Source: Chlamydoabsidia padenii (taxonomy: Eukaryota; Mucoromycota; Mucoromycetes; Mucorales; Cunninghamellaceae). From it: a stretch of 64,000 nucleotides of DNA. The notes beneath the pieces are model-generated. The model was given only the letters and a program-made list of their open reading frames with translations, was not told the origin of the DNA and made no database searches. The translations under genes were made by a program, and so were the position numbers. The stretch covers positions 1,116,001 to 1,180,000 of the forward strand of contig JAIWND010000004.1 in the NCBI GenBank assembly GCA_025330725.1, in the 5' to 3' direction. Shown here one piece after another: positions 10,043 to 42,280 of this stretch (the stretch's first letter is position 1; each line of letters starts with the position of its first letter).

Positions 10043-11771
10043 TTATGCAGGATCCAAATCGACATGGCACTTGATACAAATACGTTGTTGTTGGGATTCC
10101 AATACATGTGGAGGCTCTATTGGTCCATTTGGATGTTGAAGGACCTGAGAGGCAGGCAAGAAGGCACGAGAAGGAGAGCACCGGTCGCATACAATCAACC
10201 CACATCGACGGCAATGGTGGCGCCTATTCAATAACCCAAACCGTCGGTTACACCTTCGACAGTCCTTGACATTAAGATTGGATTCCCATATAAAGGTTGA
10301 TGATGATCCTGATTCGTCGTCCTGCTGTGTATTGGTGTTATCATCGCCTTCACCATCAGGATGTGGCTGAAATGAATGACGATGGCTGCGGACTCCTGGA
10401 TTCACATTATCAAGATTGATTTTATCCACAAGTTCCATGGGTGTTGGTGAGATTGGTGCAAGTATGGCAATGTCCGCATTGATGTGATCGATTTTAGCTG
10501 AATGGACCTTGACCAAGTTGTTGGCACGTTCCTTACGTGACTGATTCGTATCATCTATATAGCAATTAAATGTGAATAAGTGAGGTGTGTTCTTGTGGAT
10601 TCATCTTTCTTTACCTTTTATACCAGCCAGTAAGAATTGAACAGATTCTTCATAAATTCGTAATAATTTTTTCATTGCCTGTAAACGTTGTCCAGTTTCA
10701 ACACCATCATAAGAGGCACCAACCACCATGTCTTGTGCAGCAGATAAATAATCACCGTGAGTCTCTGATTCATGTTCGAGATTCCTTGCAAAATCCACTT
10801 GTCGGTTCATCACACGGACCCAACGTCGCCTTCGGACCCATCCATTACCACTGGTCGGTGCCACCGGAGTCCACTGTTCATCCATTTCGTTTTCAAAAGA
10901 GCGAGCATACTGCCACCCCGAGGTAGGATCGACACGAGGATCACTTTGGTCGATTTGCCAGTCAGTAATCCAAAACCAGTTTGCCTTACCACTATTGTTA
11001 CTTTGTCGAGGGGGTTCTACTTTATCCTTGGAGGAGGGTAGACCGGATGGATGTAATGACCAGGGTCCTCGAGTATCTTGCTTGGTCAGGTAGGCTGAAT
11101 CGAATTGAGGACGAGATAGACCGAGGAGAGAAGTAGCGCGTTGGTTTTCATGAAGAGTCACCATCACCGTGACATGATAATCAAGTACATCGTACTGAGA
11201 GTTCCTTGTTGTAGAGGAGAGACCACCTATTTATATATATATATATATATATCAATTACTTCCATTCCTTGTCTATATCTATGTGTTTTGTTCTGTTTTG
11301 TTTTACCTTGTGTGTGCCACCATTTCTTTTCAGCCTTTTCCAATAGTTCGCAAATATAAGCTTCACGGGAGGCAGCACTTGCATCATACGCAGCTTCACC
11401 AATATTGTTCTTCAGTAAGGGGTTTGCATGTGCTTCATCCAAAAGATATTCAACGATAGAAATGTGTCCCTTTGATGCTGCGTTGACTAGTTCGTGATAA
11501 AATAAAATATCTAAAGTCAGTCATGCATCATTTTTTACCCCGTATATATTACTTACTGAGAGGAGTATGTCCCAATTTACTACGTACGTCAACGCGAGCA
11601 CCATGATTAACGAGAAGTCGTACAATAGGGAGATAGCCACGGGCACAAGCATTGTGAAGAGCCGTCCATCCATCCTTGTCTTGTTGGTGTATGTTGGCGT
11701 TTTTCGATTGAAGATACTTGACTATGTGATACCGTCCATTATACGCCGCCTTGTGAAGTGCAGTCTAAACC

Positions 11772-22652: not shown

Positions 22653-24621
22653 TTAACGTAGACTTGTAGTTTTCCGGATATAAGCAGAGCGTTCACTTTG
22701 AGCTTTCGGTAGGATCAGACCATGACTTCCATCATTATCAAAGATTCGCCAAAATTTCAAATTTTCATCCGCGGCGGTTGTTGCCAGGACTTGGCCATCA
22801 GGAGCAAGAGCAGAATGGAGGATACGGGAATCATGGCCAGGAATATCGGCGATCTTTTGCAAGCTAGGATAACTCCAGACACATAGTTGATTATTAGGGA
22901 AGCCATGTGTGGAGACAATTTCCTTGTAATGCCTTGACCAGTGGAGAGAGGTTACTTGAGCTGATGTCTGGACACTGTTGATGCGTGCCGTGGTCTTGGT
23001 ATTCCAAAAATGAATCTTCTTGTCTTCACGCCCACCGCCGGTTGCCAATACATGGTGATTCCATGGACACCAAGCCAATGCCTTAATCGCACCCCGATGA
23101 ATATCCTTGCTGAATTTAGGTCCTGTAGATGATGATGATGATCGGGCATCCCAGACGCATACCAAATGATCGTTACCGCCACTTGCCAAGCTGATACCAT
23201 CGGGTGACCATTCCAGTCCACACACTTCATCTTCATGTTTCAATAGTTCCGCCGTCTTGTGTTCCTTGACCCGCACATCATGATGCCAGATCGACCCATC
23301 CTTTGCACCAGAGGATAAAAGATGCTTTTGCCAAGATAAGACACCCACTCTGCATCGACGTCCCAACAGAGATCGTAGCTTGGTATTCGCCTCCACGTCC
23401 CAGATCTGAGTGTCACCAGACTCGATACCAACCGCAAGATAGCTCCCATCATCTGACCAGCAAAGAGAAGTGATTGGATCTTCTCCATCATAGTTTAGAG
23501 CCTGTGTAGATCCATTATCGGCATTCCAGAGATACACAGATTGGTTCAAACCGACAGCCAACACGTTTTGATCTGACCAGTCCAAGAGATTAAGATAGTA
23601 GTCGTCTTTCATAAAAGGAGCATCCAGAATCTTTTCGGGCGCCGTCACAATATGTCGTTTGGGTGCTGGATCGTCTTCGCCAAGTGATGATACACCGAGT
23701 CGGCCACCTGCTTTATATAAAGGCATCAAGTTGTGTCGTGGATCTTCAATCTTGCTGAATTCTGGAGGTGGCGCTGTGAAGGATAGAATTCGTTTGCCAC
23801 GTGAATAGCCAAGTGCCTGGGCGACTCGTTCGTTGTAGCCGAGTGTGTCGTGGTCTAAATCGGTGGGTTCTTTAGTATTGGTGAGGTTGAATTGTGACGA
23901 TTGAATATCCATACTGGGTCGATGAGGAATAAACCGATCATACTATTATTTATATAAGCAGTATTAGTAAGAGATATTCCTTTTTTTTGGGGGGGGAGGA
24001 AGGAGAGGGGAATGTATTGCTTATATCACTTACGCTGCCCATTCGTTGAAGAGGTTTCTTTACAGGTCGAGGTGAATTCAACCAGTCATTGTCAACAGCT
24101 TTAATACCAGAGTGTCCAGAGTGAGATCGTTTTAGCATGTATTGAGGATCAGAGGATGCCAACTTTCGCTTGTCGCTGCTACCACGTGTCTTGGAGATGG
24201 AACGTAAAGATGGACTAGTTGTTGCTCTTGTAGTGGTTGATTTTGTAGTTGGTGTCGAAGAGGAGGAGGAAGAAGTGGTGGTGCCTTTGGTCGATTGGGT
24301 GGAGGAGGAATTTGTTGCTACATTGGAAGGACCAGAAGGTGGTGATTGAGTTGGTTTCTTCTGGAAGAGGTATTCCAACATACTTGGTTGCCGCTTTTTA
24401 GTATCCTTGGTGGGTGCTGTACATTTGGTCAATGGTGCTTTTGTTTTATCGAGAGTCTTGTCGGGAGTGGATGGTTGTTGTTGATTTTCCTTTTGATCGA
24501 CATTTGAGTGCTTGTTTACGGTATCGGATATAGGACCGTTTGTTTTACCCAATAAAGACTTGATTAATGGAATCGGCCGTTTCGCATCCGTGTTGATGGT
24601 TTTCAAAGTCGTATCCTCCAT
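22653..24621 (-). CDS. CDC20: Anaphase-promoting complex activator Cdc20/Slp1
   Basis: Two exons (24621-24034, 23942-22653) encode 625 residues. The N-terminal 200 residues are unstructured, with a KEN box at 44-46. The splice joins QRMGS to YDRFIPHR, creating the C-box (198-204) that contacts the APC/C. Seven WD40 blades follow (LNLLDWSDQNVLAVGLNQS, SLCWSDDGSYLAVG, GLEWSPDGISLASGGNDH and so on), forming the degron-binding propeller. Cdc20 triggers securin and cyclin ubiquitination at metaphase. The usual C-terminal Ile-Arg tail is replaced by Leu-Arg (the protein ends SLR). Cdh1 is the alternative identity; the KEN box and long N-terminus favour Cdc20, but the two families are close. Confidence 0.9.
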
Positions 24622-25857: not shown

Positions 25858-28800
25858 CTAAATACCATAGCGTTCTTGTAATACAGACTTGGTTTCTTGA
25901 GGAAGAGATGCAAGACCTTGTTGCCATTGTTGTTCACCAAACATGTTTTTATAACCAGACAAGATCTATAGGAAAGATTATCAAGTTAGTACCGATCATT
26001 TATTGATCCCCCAGCTTTTCCTATTTACTTACGTTTCCAAATGATGCATTTAACGATGGTGGTACAACACGGTAATTGGCAATAGCTGTGCAGAGGAGAT
26101 CGAAAGCCTAAACAGGTGGTTAGTAATCATATTGATCAGTCGGTTAATAGAAGAGATGATGACCACTTACCTTGACAGCACCTTCGGGGTTGGCCTTGAT
26201 AATTTCGCAAAGACCGCTAAATGCAGATGACTTTTCGTCATTATCTTTAACAGGAGTCAAAGATATCAACCAAGGATGTACAAAGTTTTCGAGATGAGGA
26301 GCAACCACAGTGGGACAGATCAAACCGAGACGACCAATAGTGATGGCAACATTTTCTAATAAGGTGCGTTGAATACCAGGGTTCACCATCAATGGGAATA
26401 GTCTTTGTAGCATGGGTTCTACGTAAGGTTGGATATCGTTGCCTATTGTCCCAGACAAAAAAAAAAAAAAAAAAAAAAATGTGGTCAGAAGTCAAAATCT
26501 TTTTTCCTTTCTTGTCAACCAGCTTACCTAATTTGATAGCAATTTCACCAGCAGCCCAGGTAGCATTGTTGCATACAGACACGTATTCAGCTTGAGGGTC
26601 GATCTGTTGGATGATAAGAGGCATGAATTGAGGTACCACAGCTCGAATATGTTCAAAGCAAGAGATAGCAAGATCACCGAGTAAAGCATAAGATGATTGG
26701 CGCACTTCTGCAACTTCGTCCTATATGATTCGAAAGATAAAGTAGTCAGTAACATGTAATAACAAACCCTTGTTTACTTACATTGACAGAGATAGACAAG
26801 AATTGGACAAGAGGAGGGTTTGTATTGGCGATAAGTGGTTCCGCGTCGGTGTTCAGAGCCTGTACAATACCAGACAGTAAGTCCAAAGCCACAATCATAA
26901 AGTCCTTGTCAGGTTCGTCCATGCCAGGGTTTTGAGCAGCGCGTTGACATTCTTCTAAAGTGTTGCGCACGAGATTCACACATCGAATGTAGACTGGTTC
27001 AGCGAATGGCTTGAATCCTTTTCCAAGAGCAGTCGTAACCGATGAGAGACACTATGTATTAACATGGAGAGATTAATTATTAAAATCATCAATGGATCCA
27101 TCAATATCATCTTTTCCTTTTTCATCGCTGTTCTTACCTCCAAGAGCGGGAAGAGATCAGTGCTATCATCTGGGGTGGCTTGCCATTGCTTAATGAGTGG
27201 CGGCATGATCATGTCAATATATTGAGGTACATTCAAAGCTTCAGACACAACATCGGCCAAAGTTCCAACAGTATCAAGGAGGTGCAACAGATTTTGATGT
27301 TGATACTTTTCAAATGCAGATACCAGGGTGGCCAGAATGTGATCCAAATAAGGGACCAACTGAATTGAAGCTTCTTCTTCCAACAATGAGAATGTAGAGC
27401 AGGCGGCTTCTTGTACCCGTTTGTTGTTATCAAGGATTCGTTGAAGCAAAAGTCCCACCAAAGGTTCCAAGTAATGTTTGTTAGCTTCAGGGCTTTGTAG
27501 ACTAACTTGAGCAATCCAGTTGGCGTATCGACCAAGAGTCCAACAAGTAATAGATCGCACAAGAGGCTATACATAAGATATAGAGTTGATTAGTCTATAC
27601 AAATTCTATTATTCCCTTTCCCCTCTTTTTTCTTTTTCCTTTTCCTTTCCTTTTCCTTACTTTGGTATCGTTCAAGTGAGTCAACAAATAAGGCACCAAT
27701 TCAGGCAAATGAGGGGCAATATCCTGTACACCACCTTCAGCAGCAGCACCCAAAGCCAAGATACCACATTCTCGATGGAGCCAATCAGAGCTTTCCAATT
27801 CAGTCTTCAGCAAAGGCATCAGGAGACCAATGGCATCCCCTTCATAAGAAGTACAGATGATGTCCAAAGCGGCCGCACTACACTTACGAATGTTCCATTC
27901 GTTGAATATATCATCATCTTCGTCATCATAATCGTCATCATCTTCATCGTCATCGTCATCATTGTCGCCACCATAGAGTCCACCCTTTTTCTTGCCACCT
28001 TCTTCCAAATCATCCTTGTCGGCGCGTTCAATTTCGACCACATTCGCCTTATGGAATCGAGGCTTGATATCTTGTTCATTGTCGGCCACATGAGCATCAT
28101 CATCTTCACTACCCATAGTTAACAAGTCAGTTTCAGAGTAGACCATACACTTGAGTAAGACAGGGATAATCTTGGGAAGGTAGCCATGAAGTTGTTCTCT
28201 AAACATATCCATTTCAGCAAAGACCAACCAGAATTCGCAAGCTTCCAAAGCCAAATCTTCTTCGTCGGACATGGTAGAATAGAGCATATAATCGACCAAG
28301 TTGGGCATGTGAGGGAGAAGTACTTCAGGACAGGTTTCAAACACATTAACCAAGGATTGACAGACAGATTTGCGCACTTCAACACTATCATCAGTAGCCA
28401 GCTTGAAGAGTCCTTCCAAATATTCGTTCATGCGATTCAATAATTGATCAGATCGCAAAACGATGAATTGTTGCACACATCGGACAGCAGAGAGTCGAAG
28501 TCCAGCACTAGGATGACCAAAGAAGCTGATGAATTTGGGGATCATAAAGTCTAGTGGGCAGACACCGTTCATCTCAAATTTAAGGTCGCGAGCGCAATCT
28601 TCACAGATTCTTTGCAAAGTGATCAGAGCATTCTACATCATAACAATATATAAATAGACAAAATTAGATACACAAAGTCGATAAGCCAAGCCAAGCCAAC
28701 CCTATCCCACTTTTTATCTTACCTCGACTACAATAGGTGATGGATCGTCCAATTTTTGCAATAAAACTTGTAAACCTTGAGGCCAGTTGTGTACTTGACC

Positions 28801-30513: not shown

Positions 30514-33500
30514 ATGGCCCTGAATAAGGCTTTTACATGGCAAATAGGCGAAAAAGGTAATATTCCCAATATGTGATTTTAAACATGATAATAATCCTTT
30601 ATGATTTCAACCTTGATTACTTACTAGTGAGCAATACATCATCTTCTTCACCGTTGGCATCAATAACAAAGGGTGATGATGATGATGATGATGATCACCT
30701 GTCAAATCTATCCTCAGCAGTGAATAATCCACCAGCAAAACCTATGCCATCTGATAAAGACGCGAAGTTTGGTCGATTCATGGGGAAGTTGCTATTGAAG
30801 AAAAAAGTAACCACTTCCGCATCAACAACGTCTATTTCATCGACAACATTGTATCCAGGTTACCTTCGAGCGGAACGCCGGCGTAAACATGAAACGGATA
30901 AAGGGGAAAACCTTCTTTTGCCGGAATGCACACATTGGTTAAAGGTGGATTTAAAAAAGAAAAATTTAAATTCCGACAATTCTCTCCCTTCTTCTTCACT
31001 TTCTCCTCCTTCCCCTCAAGGCAAGAAATTTCGACACAACAATGGCAAACGTACACGGTGGGATGTTCCGCAAAGTCAGGATAAAGGTAAATATATGCCA
31101 ATACAACTGTTTATTTGTGTTTTGATATCAGCAATGATTCAACTTTACCTTTTTAACTCATTCCTTCTTTTTTTTTTTTAATCAAAAAAAAAAAAAAATG
31201 AATTAGATGCATCACCACCTCTACCTCTTGAAACCAAAACTAATTCATTAAAGCCAATGCCTACTGGTTTACACGAAGATGAAGATTCTTGTCAAGACTG
31301 TTATATACAAGCTATGAAACGCAAAAGCCTGGATGTGATTGAACTCTGTGATCAATGCAAGAAAAAATGGACTGTGTGGCCAAAGATCTTCTTCTCTCTC
31401 CTACAAGACACGGCTGCTGCTACCAACACACATGAACAACAACAAAATCACCAAAATGATATGGACTCTGAAAAAAAATCACCTTCTACAACAGAAAATC
31501 AACTCATCACCAAGAATAAATCAAGCACGGGACCAACCAAAAAAGCGACACCTAAATCAACCAAAGCAACAGTACGACGACGACGTACAGCCAAACCACC
31601 TCCTCCAGCCAAATCAAGAAATACTCACAGAAACAATCCTTCATCATCAAGTCAAGCGGTGGAAGCTTCCGACACTGTGGTACCAACTCCAGTCGGTGAC
31701 ACCATGGCACTTTCTACAACAACCTCACTACCACTTCAGGAAATGGTATCGGCAAAGCAGCAAAACAACACATTCAGTCAAAACATTCATGGCTATACTT
31801 ATCAGCAACAAGTAGAAGTCTTAAATATCAATGGTCACTGGTACGCTGCAACTTTGGTGGAAACCGATGGGGGTAAAATCAAGGTACATTATCAAGACTG
31901 GGACGATCAAGATGAATGGATTATAATGGGCAGCCAACGCTTGCGCACATTAGCAACAACAACAACAACAAAAACAACAAGTGCTCCAGAAAAAGGTGAT
32001 GAAGACAATCAAGCTGGTCAAGATTCTGCATCCAATAATACCGATAATGACGATGACGATGACGATTCATCTTCTACAATGTCAGATTATCATGATGATG
32101 ATAAAGGTAAACACTAATAAAAAAAAACAACAACAAAACAAAACAAAAAAAAAAAAAAACTTGTATTAACTTTGGATATTAAATTCATAGACTTGAACAA
32201 GAATACTTCCGGTCTATCCTCAATGGCTGTAAATACCGACACTCTTCTCGAGGGACCTGGGCCATATCCTATACCACTTACAAGCAATACTGATCCACTC
32301 CTCGAACAGTCCTATCAGCAACAAGAATCCAAAAATAAACCAGACAAAGATTATGTTACATCCACTCTTGATACTGATCCCGCCAAGATATTCAACAACA
32401 ATGAAGTATTTATGACCCGAAGGATGGCTCGCCAAATGGTTGATGAACATGGATTTTGTCCAAACTCTTTTGGTTATCACTATGGTCGAGCGGTGGCAGT
32501 TACTTATGAAACAGAAGGTGCAAACAAGAAGAAACAACATATGGAATGGGTTGGCTATCTTCGACAAATGCGTGGTAATCAAGTTCGCATCTGGTTTCCC
32601 GCCTCTCAGCAATCGGATTGGATGCTCAGTGGAAGTCGTCGGCTACGTCTTTTATCGGAACAAGAAGATGCTGACTACCGGACATTGGGATTCGATATTA
32701 CTGGTGATGATGGAGGGATCAACAAACAGAAAACACCAGCAAAACCAAGTCGTAGGCGATGTCCTCAGGCAGCTACATCAACTTCTCCTGCTACTGAACA
32801 CAATAATGACCAGCGAAAACATCATCAAACACCCATATCAACATCAAAAGTCTCTACAACTCAATCCACAGACGTTGATTCGACTGTCACTCCAGCAAAA
32901 ACCCAGCCAAATGTAAACTCTGACAATCTAGCCGGAATCAATGACACAACAATGGATGGTGGTGGTAATATGAAACCAAAGAACGACAAACTGCAGCGAA
33001 AACACAAATCAGCGGCACGTACCAACAAAACCAGCCAAAAGCCAAAAAACAATGAAAACCAACTACATCAACAAGAATTCTTGACAACAGGGGCTTTTGC
33101 GACTCGACGTACTATGCGACAACTTCAAGATGAACATGGGTTTGTGCCGAATCCTTATGGATATACCTACGATATGGCGGTAGAAATCTTGAACACCAAA
33201 TCTTCCAAGCATCAATTCTTCTGGGAGCGTGGCAGGTTGGTGGGTATGCGTCCGGGCAAGGTGCGTGTTCGGTACGATGGCTGGGGTGAAATCTACGACG
33301 AATGGATAATGGTGGGAAGCAGACGCATTCGGCTAGTCCAATCAACAACAGAAACACCTCAAGATGAAAGCAACAATAAAGTGTTACCGTCTTCCTCCAA
33401 CGACACATCTCCGTTGGATCAATCATCTTCTTCAATCTGTGCTGTCTCATCCTCTTCCACCAGTCAACACAATGTATCCACTGATAAAGGCGGTAACAAC

Positions 33501-36500
33501 TCACATTTATTGGAAACCAACTTTTTGCTGATGGAAACCAACCCGGAACTCGAAGATCAAGGCAAAAACAAAAAAAGGCAGCGACAAATTCTTGGTCCAG
33601 ATGACTACCATCGCTTGGGAATGATGATCAGCATTGAAGAATTGGAAGAAAAGGAACGGAAACGGCAAAAACGACGTAGTGAACAATTGGCACAAGTAGG
33701 TGGACATCCTGACTCGAGCAATGCTCAACCTGCACCACTTGCCTCGGTAACTTTGGACGGGAAACCTTCTACAACAAACAAAGCACGAAAAACGGGAACA
33801 GGAGCCAAGCAATCGCAGCAATCTCGTAAACAACAAAGGCGCAAACAACGGCGACGAAGACAAAATGATCTTTATCTCTCGGACAGCAACGAAGAAGATG
33901 GCGATGCTGATGAAGACGATGACGATGACTATCTTAACGCACTACAAGAAGATGATCAAGGCAACAGTGGTGGCGATGAAAATGCGACCAAGGATGGAAA
34001 CGACGACCCTCATCATGGTTTTGTAGCCAATGTCTATGGATACGATTATATGCAGCATGTACAACTTCTTCATCTGGACAAAAAATGGTACGAAGGCCGA
34101 CTCATTTCAATGGATCGCAACAGACTACGGGTGCATTATTGCGGTTGGCCAGACCTTTTCGACGAATACGTTACGGTGGGAAGTAGACGGCTTCAAGTGG
34201 TGGAAAACGATCACGAAGTGGAATGTTTGGAACCAGGATACATGACTCGATATGAAGATATACTCAAGAACAAACATCTTCATCAGGGGCAACATAGGTG
34301 CGGGACATTACCTTCAACATCTGGTACTTCTTCTTATTCTACCAAGCTCAGACGTCTTACATTGGCCAATGTGGGTGATGAAGATCCTGAAGAAGACCCA
34401 GCAAACGCAGGTATGCCAATTTTTATATTTAATGTATGATCATAATACTAACTCCCACCATGTTATTTCATCTACTAGTATCATGTCATCGCTGCAATGT
34501 GGTAATCAAACAATTCAGGTACTACTGTACGTATTGTGAATCCTCCATCGGTCAAGACGAATTCGCCAATAGCTTTGATCTCTGTCTCCAGTAAGTAAAC
34601 AACCACCCTCCTCTCCAATAATCCAACTTGTGTAAATTGTACTAAGCAGCATTGGCTGACTTTTTTTTTTTTTTTGTCTTATATCATTGTTGCAGATGCT
34701 TTGACCATAACTTCCCTTTCTGGCACGAACATCCTCGGTCAAGCTTTGCGGTGCAATCAGTAATCGACACAGATATCGGGCCACGTCCTATCAAAGGTGA
34801 ACTGGTTACTGTATGGGAAGAAGATGTGATGGGCGACGAAGACAGTATGCAGGCTCCCACTAATGTTCTTACATCAGACATTTTATTCGGAAATCAAGAG
34901 GCAACAGTGGATCAAACAACATCTTCAGCAGCACCTTTAACACCTATATCAACACCACCTACAACTATGATTACGGCTCCACTCACTTCTACACCAACGA
35001 TACCATCTCCTGAATCCTCTTCTACCAATCTATTACCATTATCACCAACGAAAACAGGATCAACAACACTGGAAGCAAGTCAAATCTTTTCGGGACAAAC
35101 CTCTATTGGATCAGACCAAGGCTACAAATATCTCAAACGATGGCAACGACGGAAGGTATGCTCTTTTTGCAACGACGACGATGACACTTCTGAAGATCTC
35201 GGCAAATTCATTGGTCCCTTTGTTATCACCTCCTTCAACAAGAATGGCACCGAGAAAAAGCGCTCCTTTTGGGTACATGATGCTTGTGCAAGACACAGTC
35301 CTGAAGTCTTCTGTACTCCCGAGGGTAAATGGTACAATGTCACACTTGCATTGCGACGCGGACGTGCTGTGGTAGGTCACTTTTTTTTTAATTTTTTTTT
35401 TTTAAAATTTTATATATCCTCCCTCTCCATGAAAAAACCTTCCATCTAATCTTCTTCTTTTTACTGTGAATAGCGATGCTTTGGATGCAAAGAAAAAGGT
35501 GCTACTATTGGTTGTTTCGAATCGAAATGCAACAAAAGCTTCCATCTCCCTTGTGCACAACGGCCTGTGAACTACTTTGAAAATGGTGTGATCTTTTGGT
35601 GCCCTACTCATGAAGCATATTACAACAAAATTGGTAAGCGATGTTTAAATCATCATGATCCCTATATCTTTGACTAATCCTTCTTCTTTTGATAGATACT
35701 TATGTCAATGTGTTTAGCTGTGATGGATGCAACAAAAAACTGGAAGAAGATTCATGGTATACCTGCTTACCTTGTGCGTCAAGTTACTTCTCATCATTTG
35801 ATTTATGCGCTGATGTAGGTCTTCTAAACACTTACCTCATTATCATTATCATTAGCATGCTAATATTCTTACTTTATACTTTATATAGTGCTACGAAAAC
35901 TTCCCTCAAGACCATGCTCACGGTGAAGATCAATTTGAAGAAACATGTAACGTCAAGAACATAAACTGCTCAATTATACTGATTTACTAACACTAATCTC
36001 TCCCTCTTCATATAGCATTTGAAATCATCAAGGAAATGGAGGCTCAAAAGGCGACCGAAGCAGCTCGTGCAAAGGAGGAAGTCCGAGAAAACAGTAAGTA
36101 TACAAAAAAAAAAAAAAAAAAAAAAAAAAAAACGCATACTTAGTTTTATGCTAATCGAATATATAATGTCATTAGACGCCAAGAACCGCAAAAAGCCCAC
36201 CTTTATGAAACGAAAACGCCGACGAGCCGATGGAACTACGGCAATCACCTGTTGCTACTGTGGAATCCAGGATGCTGATGAATGGCGGAAAGGATACGAT
36301 GGTGGCGTTTTGATGTGCGTTACATGTTATAATCTGGCACTTTTAGTAGACAACGATGGACGGCCTGGTGATAACAACTACAATGAAGATCGTGAAGGTG
36401 CCGATTCAATGGAAAACGACTCATGGGGAGCCACTACAAACGAACCTCCACTTGTATTTGATCCCGATCAGCCACATCAGTATCTTGCCTCCATTGACGA

Positions 36501-39090
36501 ATACACTCACAAGCCTTACCTTACACGTGATGCTCTATCTGCGACCAAATTCAGCGACACTTTGACAGGAGCACGCCTTGCAACATACGAACCCCAACCA
36601 AACCAACTCTTCTCATTGATCTTTGCTTCCACTTACTACGATATTCCTGGTCGTGCTCCTCGCTGGGCATCTCACTCTGGGACTGATTATCATGGTATGT
36701 ATTAAAAAAAGTGGTGACATGCAAACAAACTAACATATGCTTGTATCCATTTAGGGACATGGCTACCACAGACAGTGCGAAGGTAAATATCTAAAAAGAC
36801 ACAGAAGAAATCAGAGGTGTATTTGACTAACTGATTCCCCTGTCTTCAGATCTATTTTGAAATACACCAAGAAAAATGAACGCATCTTATCAAACTTCCT
36901 TGGACGGGGTACTGATGCTATCGAATGCTTCCTATTACAGCGAAGGTAAGTACAATACTTATAGGTGAATATGTATGTGGAGGGGGACATGATGACTGAC
37001 TGCACTCACTTGTATGACCTAGATGCACGGGTATTGATATTAATCCGGTAAGTACAAATATGAATGACTATCTGGAAGCTCTTTTATTGAATATTCCATT
37101 TCTTTAGGCTGCCGTTACTTTATCTCAGCGCAATTGCTGTTTTGAACTCCCGATCGGAATAACAGAAGCCAAATATCGACCTATTGTTTGTCAAGCAGAT
37201 GCAAGAAGCCTATCCGGCTCTCTCTTTGGCGACGAATCCTTCCATCACATACTGTCTCATCCCCCATACAAGGACTGTGTAGCATACTCGACACATTTGG
37301 AAGGTGATTTATCAAGGTAATGAAATACGGCATAATCACTGACTCCGACTAACATTGGGGTCTTTTTTTTTTTTTTTTTTTTTGATTTTAGATTCAATAA
37401 TATCGATGACTTTAAAGTGGAATACGAAAACGTCGTCAAACAAAGTTGGAGGTATGTATTTATATATCGATAAAGTGATGATAGTACTCACCAATTCGAT
37501 GTATTAGGGTATTAAAAATGGGTAGAAGACTGACTCTTGGGATCGGTGACAATCGTGAACACTGCTTTTATATCCCTGTATCATTCCAGCTGATGCGACA
37601 ATATATCAATGAAGGGTTTGAAATGGAAGAAATGGCAAGTATCATTAATCAATATGACTCGGTAATCTGGTACGAATAGCCTAACAATTTTCACCTTAAC
37701 ACATAGATCGTAAAACGTCAACGCTACTGCTCTGCGTTTGGATTAGGGACTTATCTTTGCGTACAATTCGACTTTTTGGTATTCACCCATGAATTTTTGG
37801 CCACCTTCCGCAAAGTTCCTCGGGAAAAGATAGATACAATGGCGCGATGCGATGGTAAGTAAGAAAAAAAAAAAAAAAAGTAATCAAGCAAAAATATGTG
37901 AACTCATCTCTCTGATTCCATGTCGGGATAGACAATTTGATGTGTGGAGATAGTGTCCAGGTGACTCGAACTTTGCGCGGTGTACCTTCCTCGGCTATAT
38001 CAAGAAAAAGTGTGGTGATGGGAACAGTATGGGTATTCAGGCCAAAAGAACAACATAGTTTCTCGAAACTTTGTATGTCTCGCATGGTGGAACGCTTTGG
38101 AAAGGACGATTGTAACTGGGAACATGTCCAGTTTATGTTTACGGCAGTGGAGGTAAGATCATTGTATTATCTGGTAACATAAATCATGGCTCATAACTAA
38201 CATTTTACTCCTATTTTGACGATTGGTTCTTTTTAATAGGAAAATACGATAGGCAGCAGCTGTATAGTGGAGTTGACAGACGAAGAGGGTAAAAAAAAAA
38301 AAAAAAGTCATGTATTTACAGGAATATGACGTTTGGATTTACTTTTTTTCTTCTTCTTTTGATCTAGCGGCATCGGATGAAGTACAGCAACAATCTGAAG
38401 ATGAATCATCACTCTCCAACTACGAACAAGAACGATTGAAGCGGATAGATGAAAACAACAAGATCTTGCTGAAATTGGTGAGTGGAATCTTGCATATACC
38501 TTTTTTAAATCCCGATCAGCTCACTCAAAAACTTTATTCTTATACCAATTGTAATGGTAAATCAGGGTTTGGTATCGGAACTCGGTGAAGAATCTGAAGA
38601 CACCATCCATTACGACAACATGATAAACAAACCAAGTCAAGAAGAAGCACCCCTTTGTATTGTCATCATGGAACACCCCGAAGAAAATGTCATCAAGGTG
38701 AATCAAATTGGTCTCTATCGGCAAACAGTTGTGGAAGCAGCATTGAAAGCGTGTGACACCTTGGCTCCATTGGGAATGTTTATTGTGGGAACCCAGGATA
38801 TCCGAGACCCAGACACAGGGAAACTATGGCCAATGTCAATGCTCATTTTGGAAGACATCGAAGGCGCTGTCGATCGATCGATCCTCAAACTCAAGGAAAT
38901 GGTGGTAACGGTGCCTGAAGGTCATTCAAGAAATCGAAAACTGCCTATATCTGAAGCAATGGCACAATATCAACAACAAGAAGAAGAAGATGAACAAGCT
39001 GTAATCATTGTCGACGGAGATAATGATGGTAGATCATCTGATCACTTGCCTATTGTCCATGCTATCTACTTGATCTTCCAGCGCCTTTAA
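30514..39090 (+). CDS. Chromatin-reader/DNA-methyltransferase fusion: Tudor-like x4, ZZ, extended PHD, ZZ, GATA-like finger, DNA methylase
   Basis: Twenty-two exons total 6,942 nt, 2,313 residues: 30514-30556, 30628-31086, 31207-32106, 32191-34410, 34479-34590, 34696-35371, 35474-35633, 35696-35814, 35889-35946, 36016-36093, 36176-36694, 36755-36782, 36850-36945, 37023-37047, 37108-37316, 37392-37451, 37508-37634, 37707-37854, 37932-38152, 38240-38288, 38368-38477, 38566-39090. In order: a two-CxxC finger (195-225); Tudor/PHF20-like repeats at about 362-415, 541-622, 769-851 and 1074-1140 (HGFxPNxYGYxY, then RVRYDGWxxxYDEWI, VGSRR); a ZZ finger (1208-1260); an extended PHD (1397-1520: CSFC, WVHDACA, CFGCKEKGATIGC, FHLPCA); a second ZZ (1524-1581); a GATA-like finger (1633-1668: CCYC, EWRKG, MCVTC); and a methylase (about 1745-1998). 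The methylase has YHGTWLPQ, the AdoMet loop NFLGRGTDAIE, GIDINP, catalytic-type SHPPY, WRVLKMGR, IGDNREH and FTHEFLATFRK. A further domain of about 300 residues ends the protein. Nuclear DNA methylation guided by histone marks is inferred. Confidence 0.88.
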
Positions 39091-39893: not shown

Positions 39894-40012
39894 TTTCGTC
39901 TCATATAACCCTTGTGGCAAATTAATTTATCTTTTCCTTCTTCTTCTTTATCTATCTCTTTTATATACACTTTTGTCATTGGACGATTCGTTTACTTTGT
40001 TTATAACCTACA
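39091..40012. promoter_or_regulatory. Spacer upstream of VTC gene, with hairpins and T36 tract
   Basis: No gene. AATAAA signals (about 39184 and 39226) end the large gene. Closer to the VTC gene there are two adjacent hairpins (39796-39840) and a T36 tract (39857-39892) about 120 bases before the ATG. No CACGTG/Pho4-type site is seen here. Confidence 0.55.
39796..39840. repeat. Two adjacent perfect hairpins
   Basis: GAGTCTAATCTG (39796-39807) and CAGATTAGACTC (39813-39824) form a perfect 12-bp stem with loop ACTGG. Two bases later GCTCG (39827-39831) and CGAGC (39836-39840) form a 5-bp stem with loop CATT. Both lie about 175-215 bases before the VTC start codon. Confidence 0.7.
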
Positions 40013-42280
40013 ATGAAGTTTGGTGATTTGTTATCCAAGGAGACGTTTCTTCCTTGGCGATTATCATACCTCCAATACGATGTACTCAAGGTGGAATTAA
40101 AATTTCGACAACAAAAAGGCGACTGGACGAAACAAGATGAACAAGACTTTGTGGCTCTTTTGGACATTGAACTGGAAAAAGTGTACGACTTTGTGAATGC
40201 CAAGCTCGGTGAAGTAGAAGCCCGCATCAGCTATTGTGAACGATCGATCCGAACCTTTATGAACAATCCTCACTACTCCTCTGAACAAAACTGGGCGGTA
40301 ATGGACGAAGCATTAACAGAGATTCTATTCGACGTCAACGACCTTGCTAAATTCACACGACTCAACTATATTGGCTTTCAAAAAATCATCAAGAAACACG
40401 ACAAGTGGACCCAGCTCAACCTTCAACAAGAATTCGTACCCAAACTGCGTGCCAAACCACTAGACAAGCAACGATTTGATGTGGCCATTGTGTTTATCTC
40501 TTCTCTCCACGATCTCTGTCAACTCAAAGGTGAATCACGATCAGGCAATGCAGCGGCGGGCGGTGATCAGAATGCGTTTGAACGAGCCACGGCGAAATAC
40601 TGGATCCACCCCGACAACATCACTGAAGTCAAATCCATCATCATGCTTCATCTTCCTGTCCTTATCTTCAACGACAATAAACCGTTCGAACAATCCGATG
40701 CTGCCGTCTCGTCTGTGTATTTTGATAACACCGACTTTGATCTTTATACAGGACGGTTACAGCGTGACGAAGGTGCGGAGGCGATCCGATTCCGATGGTA
40801 TGGTCCCATGTCTTCCAACTCTATTTTTATCGAACGCAAAACACATCATGCTTGGTGGTTGGATGGTGCCTCCGTCAAGGATCGATTTCGACTAGATGCG
40901 AACGAGGTGGCGGACTTTGTCTCGGGCGAACTGACAGCATCAGCTTATGCGAACAGACTTGCAGCAAAAGGGGTGGACGATCAAATGGTCAAGGATAATC
41001 TCTTTATTGCAAATGGCATTCAGACTTCTCTCTCTGAAAAACACTTGCAACCGATGCTACGCGCTTTTTACAATCGTACGGCATTCCAATTACCTGGTGA
41101 TCAACGTGTGCGGGTCAGTCTGGATACCGATCTGACTTTTATTCGGGAAGACAATCTGGACGGTGTTCAGCGACGACAAAACGACACTCAATGGCGACGG
41201 CCGGATGTGGGTATCGATGCACCCTTTAGCTACTTGGACGAAGGTGACATTCTGCGATTCCCTTATGCTGTGTTGGAAACCAAACTACAAACTCATCTGG
41301 GCCAACAACCTCCTGATTGGTTAACAAATCTATTGGAATCTCATTTGGTGCATGAAGTGTCTCGATTCTCAAAATACTTGCACGGTGCTTCTCACTTTTA
41401 TCGTGATCGGATGCCTTTGCTTCCTTGGTGGTTGACAGAGATGGATTTGGATATACGGAAACCTCGGGCGACAAACTTTGGACTGACCCGATCAAGATCA
41501 TTTCGGCCTTTGATTGATGGTCGTTACAGTCGGGCAATGGAACATGAATCAAATCGGATCAAGGTGGTAGCGGAACATGCGAACAAGGCGGATGGTGACT
41601 ATACTTTACAGGATCCAGGTGCACAAGAAGGTCCGATATATCCGAATGAAAAATTATTGGAAAGACAAGTGGAAGCAGCAGAAGCAGTAGCGGCAGCAAA
41701 GGCGACAGCGGAAGCAGTAAAGGCAGCAGAGGATTCAAAATCACCAGCAACATCAGATCAAAAACAACCTATCGATGCACCTTATCTGGACGATGGAAAA
41801 AGCAAGACCAAAAAGAAGAATCCTATTTTTGCTGGGACTGACTCGACAAGGATTGCTATTGGTGCTACTGTAGTAGGAGATGAAGAAAAAAAGAAAATTG
41901 GTGTGACCAAGGTTAGGGTGGAGCCCAAGGTATTCTTTGCAAATGAACGTACTTTTATCTCTTGGCTACAATTCTGTGCTCTCTTGTTAACGGTGGCTCT
42001 CAATCTTCTCAACTTTGGTGATTACTCGGCAAGAATTTGCGGTGGGGTATTCCTAGGCATATCTGCATTGGTTGCGATATATGCTCTATACCGCTTTGAA
42101 AAACGGGCATGGTAAGTTGATGATCATCATTGTTACACTTTTTAATACTCACCTTTTCTTCTGCTTAGGATGATCAATCGACGAATCGCTGGCCGCTATG
42201 ACGATTTATGGGGTCCAGCTGTCCTTTGTGTCCTTTTAGTTGGTGCTCTTATTGTCAACTTTTACCTTCGGTTCCGTTAG
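40013..42280 (+). CDS. VTC4: VTC complex subunit (Vtc4-like polyphosphate polymerase)
   Basis: Two exons (40013-42111, 42169-42280) encode 736 residues. Residues 1-165 are an SPX domain (MKFGDLLSKETFLPWRLSYL, then KHDKWTQ), which senses inositol pyrophosphates. Residues about 195-480 form the triphosphate-tunnel domain, with TAKYWIHPDNITEVKS, the basic strand IRFRWYG, IFIERKTH, and YAVLETKLQ with the family's tunnel lysine. Three C-terminal membrane helices follow (ISWLQFCALLLTVALNLL, CGGVFLGISALVAIYALY, VLCVLLVGALIVNFYLRF). Vtc4 makes polyphosphate from ATP while moving it into the vacuole. Vtc2/Vtc3 share this layout without activity; the conserved basic strand and length near 720 favour Vtc4. 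An SPX transporter lies 19 kb downstream. Confidence 0.9.

Follow-up and report, generated by a model that had tools for sequence, protein, structure and literature searches.

What does a prokaryotic-type DNA methyltransferase do at the end of a long array of eukaryotic chromatin readers? The question is raised by one gene at positions 30514..39090 (+) of a 64,000-nucleotide stretch of the genome of Chlamydoabsidia padenii (Mucorales), referred to here as the window, whose predicted product of 2,313 residues joins Tudor/MBT-like repeats and zinc fingers to a methyltransferase. Early-diverging fungi are a main group with abundant N6-methyladenine (6mA). The reading that we favor, at a probability of roughly 57%, is that the protein is a DNA amino-methyltransferase directed to chromatin, with N6 of adenine as its most likely target, and that it carries an active and an apparently dead methyltransferase domain in one chain. 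If this is true, the amino-methylation of DNA in early-diverging fungi would be coupled directly to the state of their chromatin, and the protein may represent an undescribed fungal route for placing DNA methyl marks by chromatin state. No earlier description of such a protein was found in the open-licence literature, as represented mainly by titles and the opening parts of abstracts.

A predicted active and a degenerate methyltransferase domain

The predicted active methyltransferase domain (residues 1758-2000; 36622..37817, +; exons 11-18) scores 40 bits against the Pfam N6_N4_Mtase family (PF01555), over a cut-off of 26.7. The profile aligns as two stretches, the best one reaching the profile end, and the motifs follow the order I, II, IV: the predicted S-adenosylmethionine (SAM)-binding motif I, FLGRGTD (36896..36916, +); motif II, GIDINP, as read from the spliced protein (37030..37047, +); and the predicted catalytic motif IV, SHPPY (37255..37269, +). 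The permuted order of the beta class, with motif IV before motif I, was not found, and the domain is unpermuted.

Of 218 eukaryotic proteins, 150 retain 80% or more of the methyltransferase domain, and these were used for the motif counts. All 150 have HPPY, and 149 have motif I as F/L-x-GRG; conservation of HPPY to this extent is not due to chance. Outside the count are nine proteins judged to be prokaryotic and the 68 eukaryotic proteins with less than 80% of the domain, mostly fragments or cut elsewhere, in which HPPY occurs in 22 and is absent from 46. Homologues were sought with the C-terminal 924 residues, which returned 148 proteins at E <= 0.001 among 5,989 candidates; among the best 120 of these 148, which were listed, the predictions of P0075 and P0116 omit the stretch with HPPY and so do not have the motif.

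Homology to the prokaryotic family of P0142 and P0150 extends over the whole domain, with WATH, F.G.GT or FLGRGT, HPPY and GDLS as common motifs. The PADLOC type II methyltransferase model matched the fungal-type protein P0121 at 3.2e-39 and the bacterial P0150 at 9.9e-135; as this library holds defence proteins only, RNA enzymes cannot be ranked by it. One public record (P0031) already carries the name "DNA methylase N-4". Judged by sequence, the domain belongs to the class I amino-methyltransferases and has intact SAM and HPPY motifs.

The last ~280 residues, which follow the active domain and went unremarked in the original prediction, are also methyltransferase-like. In this degenerate second domain (residues 2037-2313; 38003..39087, +) GxG and PPx are both absent. 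By hhalign, the fungal C-terminal domain aligned with the tail of the prokaryotic long form of the enzyme at a score of 133.1 (P 98.9; 30 column shuffles <=20.4), and the bacterial tail, trimmed, aligned with the second half of the bacterial methyltransferase at 84.4 (P 98.2; 30 shuffles <=20.9). Direct alignment of the fungal tail with the bacterial methyltransferase second half scored 43.2 (P 71.3; shuffles <=25.8), and with the fungal methyltransferase second half gave P 1.6. The degeneracy of the tail varies, since some GxG is found in 14 of 41 bacterial tails and some PPx in 16, with PPF in L019. These alignments indicate that the C-terminal domain is a descendant of a methyltransferase domain and was already present in the prokaryotic long forms. 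The second domain is apparently catalytically dead and, by analogy, may act as a built-in partner of the active one. METTL3-METTL14 and MTA1-MTA9 likewise bring an active and an inactive methyltransferase together, but the window protein holds both in one chain and has no MT-A70 match; the built-in pseudo-methyltransferase would be a single-chain counterpart of METTL3-METTL14.

Reader modules

The four Tudor-like repeats of the original prediction are recognizable by a common repeat frame and by a Pfam MBT match in repeat 3. This repeat (residues 783-850; 33135..33338, +) scores 36 bits over a cut-off of 22, matches L3MBTL3 (1.7e-9) and PHF20L1 (3.7e-4) in the PDB, and has the full aromatic-cage pattern. 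Repeat 4 (residues 1076-1138; 34014..34202, +) shares the repeat frame and contains the motif LRVHYCGW, and the cage pattern Y/F-x-x-W-x3-Y/F is kept in repeats 3 and 4, at positions that we presume to be those of the cage in MBT domains. Repeat 1 (residues 362-416; 31788..31952, +) matches Agenet and Tudor_4 slightly under the Pfam cut-off. Repeat 2 (residues 554-622; 32448..32654, +) shows the common frame HGF-P---GY-Y ... GSRRLRL but not the Y/F-x-x-W-x3-Y aromatic-cage pattern.

The extended PHD (ePHD; residues 1398-1520; 35153..35623, +, spanning the intron 35372-35473) holds up as originally described: zf-HC5HC2H scores 34.3 bits over a cut-off of 29.1, two ePHD models exceed their cut-offs, and PDB matches were obtained to KMT2D (3e-10) and PHF6 (2e-6). 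The other fingers are visible as cysteine patterns. They comprise ZZ-like finger 1, with a Cys/His pattern (residues 1208-1258; 34410..34735, +, spanning the intron 34591-34695), ZZ-like finger 2 (residues 1530-1575; 35713..35924, +, spanning the intron 35815-35888), and a GATA-like finger (residues 1633-1661; 36247..36333, +). No ZZ or GATA Pfam match was obtained in the window protein at E <= 1; sub-cut-off matches occur in relatives, to ZZ in P0145 and P0214 and to GATA in P0193 (3.7e-4). A CxxC-x15-CxxC pattern match at residues 195-222 (31287..31370, +), absent from the original prediction, is a possible further zinc-binding module. The same pattern lies before residue 700 in 9/14 proteins examined, the public record of the window protein (P0001) included; the raw count was 10/14, and the match in P0105 proved to be its ZZ1 finger.

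Gene model

In silico splicing of 30514..39090 (+) joined 22 exons into 6,942 nt encoding 2,313 residues with a stop codon only at the end, exactly reproducing the single, phase-consistent gene that had been proposed. GT-AG borders were found at 20/21 introns, and intron 17 (37635..37706, +) is GC-AG. The peptide [ED]ExxxKRQRYC is contiguous across this intron in 28/28 aligned homologue rows, P0001 among them, and extra residues from the in-frame downstream GT site appear in 0/28. The public C. padenii protein P0001 matches the window protein at 100% from residue 54 to the end and lacks residues 1-53; P0002 from Cunninghamella begins with a similar peptide. As P0001 comes from the same species it is not independent evidence for the gene model, and independent support comes from the listed homologues in other species, whose identity to the C-terminal 924 residues, among the best 120 of 148, ranges from 38 to 74% at varying coverage. 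The assembly that contains the window (contig C34) totals 34.2 Mb, and a protein search of it with the methyltransferase domain gave six matches, all inside this gene. A PF01555 profile search of the same genome, run exon by exon, gave no match although the gene is present; the exons being short, this search is uninformative on copy number.

Prokaryotic relatives and the probable target base

Prokaryotic relatives are abundant, with at least 501 confirmed stretches, of which 80 were kept. The 82 loci comprised 43 long, 34 short, 3 cut and 2 untyped; 21/34 short loci were typed by match end, and 2/34 are IMG/VR contigs. By record titles, the long form occurs in Chloroflexi, Armatimonadetes, archaea and many candidate phyla, and the short form mostly in Clostridia. 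The long form (P0142, most of L003-L049) has the motif order and C-terminal extension of the window protein, and the active domain of P0142, which matches PADLOC MTase_II PDLC03376 at 1.2e-92, is 41% identical over 91%. However, P0142 carries an N-terminal helix-turn-helix (sub Pfam cut-off) and no eukaryotic readers, and long linkers occur only in the fungal C-terminal domain.

Within the stretch around the gene, the 34 short loci contain a D12 adenine methyltransferase in 32, a DpnII endonuclease in 28 and a DUF6997 protein in four, compared with D12 in 3, DpnII in 5 (all weak, 1e-6 to 1e-9) and DUF6997 in 2 of the 43 long loci. These counts used queries taken from nine of the same loci, which match themselves, the short loci are mutually related, and the endonuclease families covered were DpnII and the candidate DUF6997. 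Pfam confirmed DpnII at L050, L054 and L060 and D12 at L050 and L042. Neither gene was among the ten open reading frames of the window that were scanned.

Pneumococcus protects GATC from DpnII with two methyltransferases of that system, DpnM acting on double-stranded and DpnA on single-stranded DNA (PMC3573125), and GATC methylation is on adenine (PMC12542736; here and below, cited papers are represented by excerpts of their text unless the whole main text is named). The short bacterial kin are found near D12 and DpnII genes, as would be a second methyltransferase in the role of DpnA; they lack the C-terminal domain of the window protein, and classical DpnA is linked by a distant profile match only (2.8e-8). 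With the short kin in DpnII/D12 loci, N6-adenine would be the likeliest base, perhaps in GATC for the short branch, and is favored over cytosine-N4 by an argument that reaches across a long branch to the fungal enzyme.

Other proteins were seen at the prokaryotic loci. A small protein of ~160-190 residues without a Pfam family lies beside 13/43 long-form methyltransferases (e.g. L005:5571-6062, L022:5521-6078), and a second small protein family lies beside 5/43. DUF6996-DUF6997-DUF7226 proteins at L059:5599-6879 and L065:5082-6257, near the methyltransferase and a D12 gene, are candidate restriction endonucleases that stand in place of the DpnII of sister loci.

Distribution in fungi and origin

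Two further protein searches gave 67 proteins among 5,238 candidates and 68 among 7,993, the latter being the candidates with the most shared words. Assigned to phyla by genus names, with a look-up for two of them, Paramicrosporidium and Chlamydoabsidia, the named relatives belong to Mucoromycota, Mortierellomycota, Glomeromycota, Calcarisporiella, Zoopagomycota, Entomophthoromycota, chytrids, Neocallimastigomycota and Rozellomycota (Paramicrosporidium); they include proteins of Mucor lusitanicus (P0035) and Phycomyces blakesleeanus (P0193). No names from Dikarya, animals, plants or other non-fungal eukaryotes occur among the listed rows (best 120 of 148; 67; 68), and for Dikarya this absence rests on those rows and on genus names only. 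Metagenome homologues without names may be non-fungal. The ePHD core is in the same chain in 113/135 eukaryotic domain-holders of at least 700 residues.

A tree built from 94 rows and 248 columns puts the 30 sampled eukaryotic rows together as one side of a 100/100 branch; the group labelled euk_meta wrongly includes P0214, a named Rozellomycota protein. The phylogeny called for by the original prediction sets the eukaryotic rows apart but does not place the donor, since the branch between the two sides is long and unrooted. The simplest account is that the enzyme passed into the fungal line a single time, and the family is best read from these sequences as dating from near the base of the fungi and spread over the early-diverging phyla. 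It would be a rare case in which a prokaryotic methyltransferase of the restriction-modification type was fixed as a chromatin protein near the origin of a kingdom. A viral origin was also considered and rejected: the fungal profile gave 13 pattern matches in IMG/VR, with 0 confirmed. The prokaryotic profile gave four loci there: two strong ones, L083 and L084, which have the bacterial short form, and two weak ones, L085 and L086.

Comparison with known eukaryotic DNA methylation systems

In Mucor lusitanicus, symmetric 6mA is made by the MTA1 complex, and deletion of MetB removes 70-75% of 6mA as measured by single-molecule real-time (SMRT) sequencing, chiefly at asymmetric sites; the discussion of the same paper describes asymmetric 6mA as completely lost in mutants (PMC11258239). 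A 2026 review names MTA1c and MetB as the fungal adenine writers (PMC13297926). The term PF01555 is absent from the main text of PMC11258239, and the terms 4mC and N6_N4 are absent from that of PMC13297926. The genome of the window also has MT-A70 matches, and the contig of the window carries a MetB-type (PF02384) match (G000:C34:1235910-1236257).

MetB (PF02384) and the MTA1 complex (MT-A70) are, like the protein proposed here, DNA methyltransferases of early-diverging fungi, and MetB is also prokaryotic in origin (PMC11258239, PMC13297926), but they belong to other families: the window protein has no PF05063 (MT-A70) or PF02384 match at E <= 1, and its motif is HPPY rather than DPPW. The bdelloid rotifer N4CMT likewise joins a prokaryotic-type amino-methyltransferase to a histone reader; it is of the permuted beta class, with SPPY and a single C-terminal chromodomain (PMC8885841), whereas the window protein is unpermuted, has HPPY and carries a large N-terminal reader array. 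The claim that this combination is distinct from both MT-A70 enzymes and N4CMT is upheld by these differences, and the original interpretation as a whole is upheld in part.

Proposed function and alternative explanations

We propose that the caged repeats would bind methyl-lysine on histones, while nucleosomal DNA or histone tails may be the ligands of the ePHD and fingers. The active domain would hold SAM at FLGRGTD, take up a flipped base and methylate its exocyclic amine at HPPY, with the dead domain serving as a built-in partner for DNA and target recognition, as METTL14 or MTA9 serves METTL3 or MTA1. The ancestor would have been a prokaryotic long-form methyltransferase already carrying the dead domain, which may have been acquired by the fungal lineage in a single event, earlier than the divergence of Rozellomycota from the rest; readers would have been gained after entry and the gene lost on the way to Dikarya. 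The full proposal, of an ancestral fungal system that reads histones and writes on adenine, with an active methyltransferase and its own dead twin, acquired once from prokaryotes at or before the fungal base, lost in Dikarya and forming a third adenine route besides MTA1 and MetB, is tentative, and we put it at somewhat less than an even chance. It concerns a single gene whose deletion would be readable by standard methylation maps.

Several observations weigh against an adenine writer at marked nucleosomes. The 6mA of Mucor lusitanicus is credited to the MTA1 complex and MetB and not to this family (PMC11258239), and the readers differ among species, with at least one simple cage-like pattern in 75/109 domain-holding proteins of at least 1,500 residues. 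In a single-sequence search of the PDB, the DNA modification methylase 2zie (2.5e-5) and the tRNA methyltransferase Trm11 (8.6e-5) are nearly tied, and a comparison of folds brings up tRNA methyltransferases as closest, the domain having the catalytic-domain fold of Trm11. The enzyme could methylate RNA, for example guanine N2 as Trm11 does, with the reader array coupling it to transcription, although we regard this as quite doubtful. The fungal profile ranks 2zie (2.1e-7) before Trm11 (2.6e-4), and the profile of six prokaryotic relatives ranks 2zie first at 1.4e-18, followed by 8s9n (2.4e-10), MboIIA (1.9e-9), DpnA (2.8e-8) and Trm11 (1.3e-6); the best NCBIfam rows for P0121 and P0145 are adenine DNA methyltransferases, far below cut-off; THUMP, the defining domain of Trm11, has no Pfam match in the window protein at E <= 1; and the prokaryotic kin sit in restriction-modification loci. 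The profile search put forward at the outset as a check for an RNA or protein methyltransferase thus ranks a DNA enzyme before Trm11 in all three sequence searches, and the comparison of folds points to tRNA enzymes. By sequence profile the domain is nearest to DNA methyltransferases, from which we infer DNA as the substrate.

If the substrate is DNA, the same architecture might write N4-methylcytosine (4mC) instead of 6mA. Both specificities occur within PF01555 (PMC8885841), 8s9n, which comes second among the PDB matches of the prokaryotic profile, is a DNA cytosine-N4 methyltransferase with a sister entry, 8s9m, that carries the description of the bdelloid enzyme, and other enzymes are credited with Mucor 6mA. 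We nevertheless consider 4mC unlikely given the DpnII-type loci of the short bacterial relatives (28/34), with GATC methylated on adenine (PMC3573125, PMC12542736), and given HPPY in place of the SPPY of most bacterial N4C enzymes (PMC8885841). An active enzyme might also act transiently, as on single-stranded or newly replicated DNA in the manner of DpnA, and leave no standing genome-wide mark: bacterial short kin occupy the place expected of DpnA, DpnA methylates single-stranded DNA (PMC3573125), and the known 6mA of Mucor leaves little room for a further bulk writer. Judging by the reader array, the substrate would more likely be nucleosomal than single-stranded, and transient action appears improbable. 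That the gene is an artefact of two adjacent genes or a contaminant is scarcely credible; the model does come from in silico splicing alone and the public model lacks the first 53 residues, but the ePHD core and methyltransferase share one predicted protein in the 113/135 counted above, across many phyla, the gene has 21 introns, and it is the sole matching locus in the 34 Mb genome. A DNA amino-methyltransferase directed to chromatin, and probably to adenine, remains our preferred explanation.

Neighboring genes

The adjoining gene at 40007-42112 (+) encodes SPX, VTC and DUF202 domains. The Parasitella protein P0079 has VTC, DUF202 and PF01555 in one chain and is probably a fused prediction of conserved neighbors. 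Elsewhere in the window are genes for a CDC20/Fizzy WD40 protein (22656-23942, -), a FYVE-finger protein (10046-10600, -) and a HEAT-repeat protein (27598-28632, -), the last presumably resembling a transportin.

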